Shown: positions 18,731-60,996 of the stretch, in pieces
Layout: each line of letters starts with the position of its first letter
Position numbering within the stretch: position 1 is the stretch's first letter
Source of the DNA: Pseudomonadota bacterium
GTDB lineage: Bacteria; Pseudomonadota; Alphaproteobacteria; Rhodospirillales; Magnetospirillaceae
Length of the DNA stretch: 64,000 nt
Direction: 5' to 3'
Assembly (NCBI GenBank): GCA_021793155.1
Contig: JAJYTF010000006.1
Coordinates: forward strand, 62,001 to 126,000
Translations under genes and position numbers: made by a program
The notes under the pieces: generated by a model
What the model was told of the DNA's origin: nothing
Database searches by the model: none
What the model saw: only the letters and a program-made list of their open reading frames with translations

Positions 18731-18851
18731 CCCCGGGAAGCCACACCGAACGAGCAGTCTGCTTCCGAAACGGTACAACCGTCAATGCCCAAACACAGGA
18801 ACATACGGTTGGGTCGGCTGTTGACCTGCCAGCCGCTGGCCGGAATGGCGC

Positions 18852-18966
18852 TGGTGGTCCTGCCCTGAGGCTTGGCCTCCAGGCCTCAAGGCCGGACCAC
18901 CAACTGACTGAATTGTGGCGAGCATCTGGAGGATGACGCCCGCACCATCCGTCAGGTGCTCGCCAC
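18852..18966 (+). ncRNA. Structured repeat, copy 1 (upstream of GH13-GlgE gene)
   Basis: A compact 115-nt unit: an outer stem TGGTGGTCC/GGACCACCA (18852-18860 with 18894-18902) enclosing a hairpin around GAGGC/GCCTC, a linker ending TGAATT, and a long hairpin GTGGCGAGCA/TGCTCGCCAC (18915-18924 with 18957-18966), extended inward by CTG/CAG and GGATG/CATCC. A second, diverged copy lies at 60741-60862 with compensatory changes in the long stem. It ends 18 bases before the GTG start and 4 bases before the TAGGAG ribosome site, so it would be in the 5' leader of the glucan operon. It may be a cis-regulatory RNA or a mobile palindromic element; the sequence alone cannot separate these. Confidence 0.55.
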
Positions 18967-18984
18967 AGGGTAGGAGCATTCCGC

Positions 18985-59454: not shown

Positions 59455-59573
59455 TCCGCGCGATCGCTTGGACGCGATAGCCCCGCGGGCGTGATCACGG
59501 TATTCCGCGGCGAGGGAACGCGCCGGTCTTATTGGCTGTTTGAAAGGGGGAAGCTGCGACAGCGAGGTCCGTG

Positions 59574-60743
59574 ATGGTCACCAGCCCCGGCCTGACCCTT
59601 AGCCCGTTCGGTTCCTACCAAGCGCTGATCGGCTCGTCGACGCTGGCCGGTGCGGGCTTGGGGTCGGCGATTTCGCCGGTCATTCCCACGGCGGCGCCCG
59701 AGGTCAACGGCGCGGCCGGATTGAGCGGCACGACTCTGGGAGCCGCCGGCACCGCCGTGCCGCCTAGCCCGGCAATCGCTTCGACGCTGAATACGCCACT
59801 GGGCGCGGTGGGATCCGCGGGCGGTGTGACCGGCTCGTCGCTGGCGGGGGGCGCCACACCATCGCTGCCAGGGGCTTCCGCCGCCCTCGTCATGCCGACG
59901 ACTTCGGGCAGTCTCGCGACGGCAATTCCCGCCGCCGCGCCTGGCATCGGGGTTCCTGCGGTGGGCACGACGGCTCCACCGATCGGCGGCGTGACGACGC
60001 CGACGGCCTTTCCGATACCGGGCGTAACGGTCACCCCATTGAGCTCGGCGGTCGAGGCGGCAGCGGTAAACCAGACCAACGCGCTGGCGGCCGGTGTCAG
60101 CCCTGTGGCGGCGGCGAGCGGGGCGGTGGCGCTTCCCCCGACCGTTCCAGCCTCGGCGGCTACCTCCGGCGCAGGGGCGGCCCAGGTATTTCAAGCGACG
60201 TTGGACCCGATCAACAATTCGGGTGTGCATGGTTCGGCCACTATCACCCTTTCCGGCCAGATGCTGACCGTCGACCTCCAGGCCAGCGGGCTTCAGCCTG
60301 GGCAGATCCATCCTCAATATATCGACACCATGGCCGGTGGTGGCGCCGATCGAATGCCGACCGCCGCGGACGACGTCAATCACGATGGCTTTATTGACCA
60401 GACCGAGGCGATGTCGGCGATCGGTGCGCCAGTCCTCGACTTATCCCTCGATCCCTCGGTAACCGCCAGCGGCACGCCGGTGGCCGACCGCCTGGCGATC
60501 TTCCCGGTGGCCGCCGCGGACGGCACGGTGATCTATCACGAAGTCTTCGCTTTCAATTCGGGCCAGCCGGCGGCAACTGCGGCCTTTACCCAGTTGACGA
60601 GCCATCTGGCCGCTGGCGCCGTCGTCCTGGACGGGATGACCGTTCATCCGCCGGGCCTGGCGGGTGGGGCCGTCGGCTACCTGCCCCAGCTTCCCGTGGC
60701 TGTCGGCCTGCTGCACGAGACGGCCGGCCCGCCCATCGGCTAG
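59574..60743 (+). CDS. Low-complexity protein with CHRD-like C-terminal domain
   Basis: A 389-residue protein. The first 190 residues are very rich in Ala, Gly, Pro, Thr and Val without charge, likely disordered. Residues about 200-389 resemble a CHRD-type extracellular beta-domain: VFQATLDPINNSGVHGSATITLSGQMLTVDL, HPQYIDTM, and a calcium-loop-like DVNHDGFID. No signal peptide is present, so it is either cytoplasmic or exported by an unusual route. GAGG stands before ATG 59574. It lies 250 bases ahead of the type IV secretion genes, and the structured repeat copy 2 begins in its stop codon. Confidence 0.7.
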   Translation: MVTSPGLTLSPFGSYQALIGSSTLAGAGLGSAISPVIPTAAPEVNGAAGLSGTTLGAAGTAVPPSPAIASTLNTPLGAVGSAGGVTGSSLAGGATPSLPGASAALVMPTTSGSLATAIPAAAPGIGVPAVGTTAPPIGGVTTPTAFPIPGVTVTPLSSAVEAAAVNQTNALAAGVSPVAAASGAVALPPTVPASAATSGAGAAQVFQATLDPINNSGVHGSATITLSGQMLTVDLQASGLQPGQIHPQYIDTMAGGGADRMPTAADDVNHDGFIDQTEAMSAIGAPVLDLSLDPSVTASGTPVADRLAIFPVAAADGTVIYHEVFAFNSGQPAATAAFTQLTSHLAAGAVVLDGMTVHPPGLAGGAVGYLPQLPVAVGLLHETAGPPIG

Positions 60744-60862
60744 TGGTCTGCCCCAGACGCTTGGTCCCCAAGCGCCTGGATCAGGCGGCCCACCAACCAA
60801 TTGAATTGTGGTGAAAATTCGACGGCTGGTGGCGGTACCATCCGTCGGATTTTGACCACTAG
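60741..60862 (+). ncRNA. Structured repeat, copy 2 (upstream of virB10)
   Basis: Same architecture as 18852-18966: outer TAGTGGTC/GGCCCACCA, an enclosed hairpin CGCTTGG/CCAAGCG, a shared linker ending TTGAATTGTGG, and a long hairpin 60808-60825 with 60842-60859 (GTGGTGAAAATTCGACGG against CCGTCGGATTTTGACCAC, one mismatch). The TAG of the upstream gene is its first three bases. Relative to copy 1, stem pairs changed in concert (see findings). It lies 135 bases before the chosen start of virB10. Confidence 0.55.
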
Positions 60863-60945
60863 GTCAGTTTCGCGGTCATTCTGACGGCGAGGCGAGAGAC
60901 GCCGCTTCCGGCCTTGCGTGAAAACGCGTATACAGATGTATCCAT
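60859..60945 (-). other. 28-codon minus-strand ORF (MDTSVYAFSRKAG...)
   Basis: ATG 60945 opens a frame MDTSVYAFSRKAGSGVSRLA and ends VRMTAKLT-stop. Its end is related to the remnant at 58264-58335. The start lies inside the palindrome 60937-60955 and the stop at the tip of repeat copy 2. No ribosome site. It may be a small repeated coding unit or a coincidence of repeats. Confidence 0.3.
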
Positions 60946-60955
60946 AACGGATACA
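60937..60955. promoter_or_regulatory. 7-bp palindrome upstream of virB10
   Basis: TGTATCC (60937-60943), 5-base spacer, GGATACA (60949-60955). A compact, perfect operator-like palindrome 41 bases before the chosen virB10 start. Confidence 0.5.
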
Positions 60956-60996
60956 TTGTGGTCCGACTGTGTTTCTTGCGAGGAAGAGAGCTTGCG

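Follow-up and report, generated by a model that had tools for sequence, protein, structure and literature searches.

An established precedent of a MITE mobilised by an IS630 transposon is RUP of Streptococcus pneumoniae, an element of about 107 bp present in about 108 copies and attributed to IS630-Spn1 (PMC2229807). Its ends are like those of an IS630 element of its own genome, its targets are TA dinucleotides, and it has inserted into other repeats (PMC2229807). The repeat analysed in this work shares with RUP the IS630-like ends and, as it appears, the TA targets; however, sequence and host are different, and RUP is not described (PMC2229807) as two palindromes plus a linker. A layout of two long inverted repeats and a linker, of about 110 bp, is instead that of the CcrM-associated intergenic repeats (CIR) of Caulobacter and other alphaproteobacteria (PMC2229807), and both folds and alignment reveal two arms joined by a linker in the present repeat as well. 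CIR, however, possess a conserved GANTC near the loop, whereas in the present repeat GANTC occurs in 18 of 34 representatives, scattered and mostly in the arms, and in neither copy of the window (that is, the whole 64-kb stretch of DNA that was analysed). We therefore keep the repeat apart from CIR on the basis of GANTC, relying on the description of CIR rather than on their sequence. The Correia elements of Neisseria are also short and present in high copy number, with terminal inverted repeats and TA ends, and an IHF site within such an element has been reported (PMC2229807); nevertheless, according to the same review most elements of this type are a single stem made by their ends, and lack the arrangement of paired arms around a linker.

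Concerning the autonomous transposons, ISY100 inserts at TA with duplication of the TA (PMC2170065), and CTAG (its TA) is given as the preferred target of IS630 in the title of a 1991 paper by Tenzen and Ohtsubo that PMC2170065 cites. The present repeat agrees with this group in its apparent TA target, in the CTAG preference reported for IS630 and in its ends, which match through an IS copy on contig C12 of the window's own genome (G000); it differs from these autonomous elements in lacking a transposase. On the basis of the matching IS ends, the empty sites and the single CTAG common to tandem copies, we suggest, with a probability of roughly 0.93, that we are dealing with a MITE that is non-autonomous, belongs to the IS630/Tc1-mariner group and inserts at CTAG; the two copies in the window are then most likely remnants of transposons and not an RNA switch common to both operons.

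Two copies in the window and many in the genome

The features of the two copies are the following:

18851..18969, + strand: copy 1, a decayed older member of the two-hairpin repeat, with ends CTGG...CAGG instead of CTAG...CTAG
18854..18900, + strand: copy 1, hairpin 1, palindrome of the IS right end (GTGGTCC...GGACCAC), from fold and alignment
18901..18914, + strand: copy 1, linker, CAACTGACTGAATT, which on the minus strand deviates from an IHF-type site at two positions
18915..18966, + strand: copy 1, hairpin 2, palindrome of the IS left end, from fold and alignment
60740..60862, + strand: copy 2, a young full-length MITE of 123 bp, CTAG to CTAG, with 2 differences from the young consensus
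60740..60743, + strand: copy 2, left CTAG (target site), with the TAG that terminates the upstream ORF 59571-60743
60743..60793, + strand: copy 2, hairpin 1, palindrome of the IS right end, from the fold
60794..60807, + strand: copy 2, linker, CAACCAATTGAATT, which on the minus strand resembles an IHF site except for one mismatch; the same linker occurs in L043
60808..60859, + strand: copy 2, hairpin 2, palindrome of the IS left end, from the fold
60859..60862, + strand: copy 2, right CTAG, the second copy of the target site

The initial annotation had described a two-copy structured repeat. Both sequences do lie where it had placed them, within a base or two, but the repeat is not confined to two copies: the window's genome (4.93 Mb) harbors at least 40 full-length copies with 97–100% identity to copy 2, plus many decayed ones. 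The young insertions that were extracted occupy 41 distinct sites, all are exactly 123 bp long from CTAG to CTAG, and their flanks are unrelated outside the CTAG. Copy 1 belongs to an older, decayed layer with about 70–74% identity; a repeat-family profile, the seed of which includes copy 1 itself, matches it at 18851-18967, and an independent blastn search relates it to other copies (74% identity, E 2.6e-15). In the alignment its hairpin 1 is devoid of the 4-base insert of the young subfamily. Copy 2 had been proposed to begin in the stop codon of the upstream gene; it does overlap that codon, and its start has been moved to the C of the CTAG at 60740. A loop sequence thought to be shared by the copies, CCATCCGTC, turned out to belong to the long stem, in its 3' arm, and not to a loop, and it corresponds to the IS end ...GACGGATGG.

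Several contigs of the genome terminate in the repeat, as expected of dispersed repeats. A crude test by longest-ORF calling disclosed no preference in orientation to the next gene or for a leader position, and 16 of 34 sites appear to fall inside an ORF, a figure made unreliable by shadow ORFs in this high-GC genome; the continuity of ORFs across the joined flanks gave no consistent signal. Recombinant halves were found in L032 and L043, and exchange between copies is thus one route to matched arms.

Several copies lie at the ends of genes, with the CTAG acting as a stop codon. This arrangement, together with the effects of published MITEs on neighbouring transcripts (PMC2229807), speaks for a mobile repeat co-opted at some sites as terminator, mRNA stabiliser or insulator, an idea that would be compatible with the MITE explanation. 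No site-specific conservation was found, however, and in G001, a genome of the same genus, the loci orthologous to both window copies lack the repeat, so that we regard such co-option as rather unlikely, even though single copies may possibly act on neighbouring genes.

Target site, empty loci and an IS630 transposon

All the young copies have CTAG on both sides, and tandem copies have one CTAG in common (L131, L132). With CTAG as the target, a duplication of 2 bp and one of 4 bp look alike; accordingly, what the insertions beside a second repeat and the G001 sites support is the sharing of CTAG or TAG rather than the length of the duplication. At the L019 site the gene ends in TCC-TAG followed by the MITE in G000 vs TCA-TAG, empty, in G001, and the orthologs of the L003 and L020 sites are also empty in G001. 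The same is true for both loci of the window, the glgE locus being empty also in G004; the G001 ortholog of the copy 2 site reads ATCGGCTGA, without the repeat, and the stop codon there is TGA vs the TAG supplied by CTAG in the window. The exact ancestral CTAG was not seen at any of the empty sites, none of which is conserved enough.

CTAG is scarce in the window (20 occurrences in 64 kb vs about 209 expected from base composition), and the repeats are therefore a sizeable source of CTAG targets. The second dispersed repeat (L060:2358-2449; also L002, L005, L021, L027, L104 and L133) has ends like CTAGTGCAGTGA, which resemble CTAGTGCATTGA, the ends of IS630 elements in G012 (L146, L148). It occurs in tandem with the first repeat or nested beside it, with CTAG sites in common, the first repeat lying at the CTAG on its edge.

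The examination of CTAGTGGT sites outside recognisable copies led to a 1158-bp IS630-family element (G000:C12:118106-119263), which begins with CTAGTGGTAAAAATCTAACGGATG and ends with AGACTCGGACCACTAG / TAGACTCGGACCACTAG. It has one open frame, the stop codon of which is the TAG of its last CTAG, and the encoded transposase is full-length, with a DDE_3 domain (PF13358, 63.6 bits) plus helix-turn-helix domains; the context of its DDE motif (DEKSQIQALDR, ADNYATH, SWLNAVEGFF) fits IS630. The ends match crosswise, the IS left end with the repeat right end (22/24) and the IS right end with the repeat left end (20/24), vs 16/24 for the wrong pairings, when the typical ends of the repeat family, read from the alignment by eye, are compared; for the individual relatives that agree best, the figures are 22/25 and 23/25. 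The repeat itself encodes no transposase, and no further copy of the C12 element was detected in G000 at E 1e-20. Since the ends of this IS, the sole one of its kind found in the genome, are not identical to those of the MITE, the actual parent may have disappeared or may reside in another place.

According to the mechanism that we propose, an IS630-type transposase would recognise the outer ends (CTAGTGGTCCG... and, read from the opposite strand, CTAGTGGTGAAAATC...), excise the repeat and insert it at the TA of CTAG, which would leave CTAG on both sides. That the C12 transposase or a related one moves the repeat is suggested by the sequences of the ends. The location before glgE and virB10 would be a by-product of insertion, copy 2 having presumably landed on a CTAG now used as a stop codon.

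The hairpins, with a tetranucleotide at their foot, might also recall a REP/BIME-like palindrome mobilised through single-stranded hairpins by a Y1 transposase (RAYT or IS200/IS605), and G000 does possess four Y1 transposase genes, three of them on contig C58 alongside two repeat copies. Yet the outer ends are inverted repeats matching an IS630 element and not a Y1 element, the CTAG stands on both sides and is common to tandem copies, as in a target duplication, and CTAG is the reported target of IS630; mobilisation by a Y1 enzyme thus appears very improbable. As for C58 (a contig of 12.9 kb; L136, L137, L138), two of its three Y1 genes, of IS200/REP type, lie within about 1 kb of repeat copies, and the repeats on it exceed the expectation from repeat density; the four Y1 genes of the genome are confined to two contigs. 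The alternative preferred here, a mobile palindromic element, had already been put forward beside a regulatory RNA by the initial annotation, and it is supported by the high copy number, the fixed CTAG ends, the empty sites in a relative and the matching IS630 transposon in the genome.

Covariation of the stems at the DNA or the RNA level

Folding predicts two strong hairpins in each copy of the window, on either strand (z -6.5 to -7.9). The compensatory changes between the two long stems (C-G/T-A at pair 5, G-C/A-T at pair 8 and C-G/A-T at pair 9) are visible by eye, as first noticed, while a nonstandard G.G at pair 6 of copy 2 is due to the two positions deviating from the young consensus. 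Covariation was also recovered in the larger alignment that had been called for: in 34 distinct full-length relatives 89.8% of the stem cells pair, 30 of 45 pairs are changed on both sides, and the covariation score is 0.257, vs 0.125 in shuffles and 0.04–0.09 in slid controls.

Strong predicted folds and real covariation are what would be expected if the hairpins were under RNA-structure selection, as cis-regulatory RNAs in the leaders of the operons of glgE and virB10. The genes 3' of the copies do code for a GlgE-type protein (copy 1) and a TrbI/VirB10 protein (copy 2), according to Pfam, and copy 1 sits 18 bases 5' of the start codon. If selection acted on the RNA strand, however, G.U should exceed A.C among the stem intermediates on that strand. 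The two are about equally frequent (62 G.U vs 59 A.C cells, counts that are not independent events as the sequences are related), also in hairpin 2 alone (37 vs 29, p = 0.39); nothing in these counts indicates that an RNA strand is under selection, and they fit palindromes kept at the DNA level. The Rfam search of the window, at curated thresholds, yielded 0 matches at or above the gathering score, in agreement with the initial statement that the repeat belongs to no nameable RNA class.

The genomic context also speaks against a cis-regulatory RNA: at least 40 near-identical copies occupy unrelated sites, the repeat is absent from both orthologous loci of G001 and from the region before glgE in G004, and the crude orientation test disclosed no preference toward the next gene. 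Between copy 2 and virB10, at window positions 60936-60956, there is in addition an operator-like palindrome (ATGTATCC-ATAAC-GGATACAT), whose counterpart upstream of the same gene in G001 is AATGTATCC-TTGGG-GGATACATT; from these sequences it looks like a conserved regulatory site. Lying 3' of the repeat, it implies that the virB10 promoter may well be downstream of copy 2, which further weakens the idea of an RNA common to both operons. On the whole, we consider this idea, as originally proposed, hardly tenable.

On the reading of the repeat as an IS630-type MITE, the paired stem changes would stem from arms held palindromic in the DNA, being transposase ends and probably undergoing conversion between arms or between copies, which is the likely mechanism keeping the arms matched.

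Anatomy and distribution of the wider family

Each half of the repeat consists of an IS end with an inverted copy of that end behind it, and this would generate the two hairpins. Stand-alone halves bounded by CTAG exist in G000 (53 and 58 bp), and three palindromes comparable to stand-alone halves were found in G050. The inner CTAG is intact in several elements (L264, L270, L272), suggesting, from their sequences, that two solo units have fused. L255 (G022:C1:314197-314328) is chimeric, with one half carrying a CTAGTGCACTGA-type end, of a different IS630 type, and the other half of the CGGACCACTA type, which points to interchangeable halves.

A motif chosen after the linkers had been seen, WATCAANNNNTTR, is present, when no more than one mismatch is allowed, in 38 of the 64 elements, which are related to each other, and in 36 of them it lies in the linker, vs 4.6% in mononucleotide shuffles. 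The frequent resemblance of the linker to an IHF site should be taken as a lead and does not prove that IHF binds; judging from the motif, it may do so.

Further copies were sought, as had been suggested, with a covariance model of the 34 aligned relatives. In the order, 27 of 150 genomes have matches. In the class, 12 of 289 genomes have matches, namely the window's own, 1 of its family and 10 of other orders (one of them marginal, E 8e-4). The distant elements that were read have other arm sequences, but for the most part the same two-palindrome layout with outer ends of CTAG or TA. Among GTDB species genomes, exact matches to the repeat core (L149, L156, L168 and others) were found only in Telmatospirillum, Magnetospirillum, Rhodospirillaceae/Rhodospirillales, proteobacterial MAGs and one Stygiobacter-labelled MAG, which is probably mislabelled. 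Literature searches for the repeat or for RIME1 found nothing.

It is tempting to extend this anatomy to the two-arm repeats of Alphaproteobacteria, including those of CIR type. These might be composite IS630 MITEs in which two end-palindromes, formerly solitary and each flanked by CTAG, are connected through a linker that is an IHF site. Their inner ends would be disabled, the pair thus moving as a single unit, and the halves would be interchangeable, with arm sequences turning over together; we advance this generalisation tentatively, as somewhat less probable than its contrary. The present results suggest how the two-arm repeats of alphaproteobacteria may move, a question described as unresolved in PMC2229807. 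For the repeat itself, the strong covariation does not imply an RNA, and a tempting false lead is thereby removed; equal counts of G.U and A.C, which point to palindromes kept at the DNA level, may serve as a practical filter. A repeat of many genomes in the window's order has now a candidate parent transposon, a target and an anatomy.
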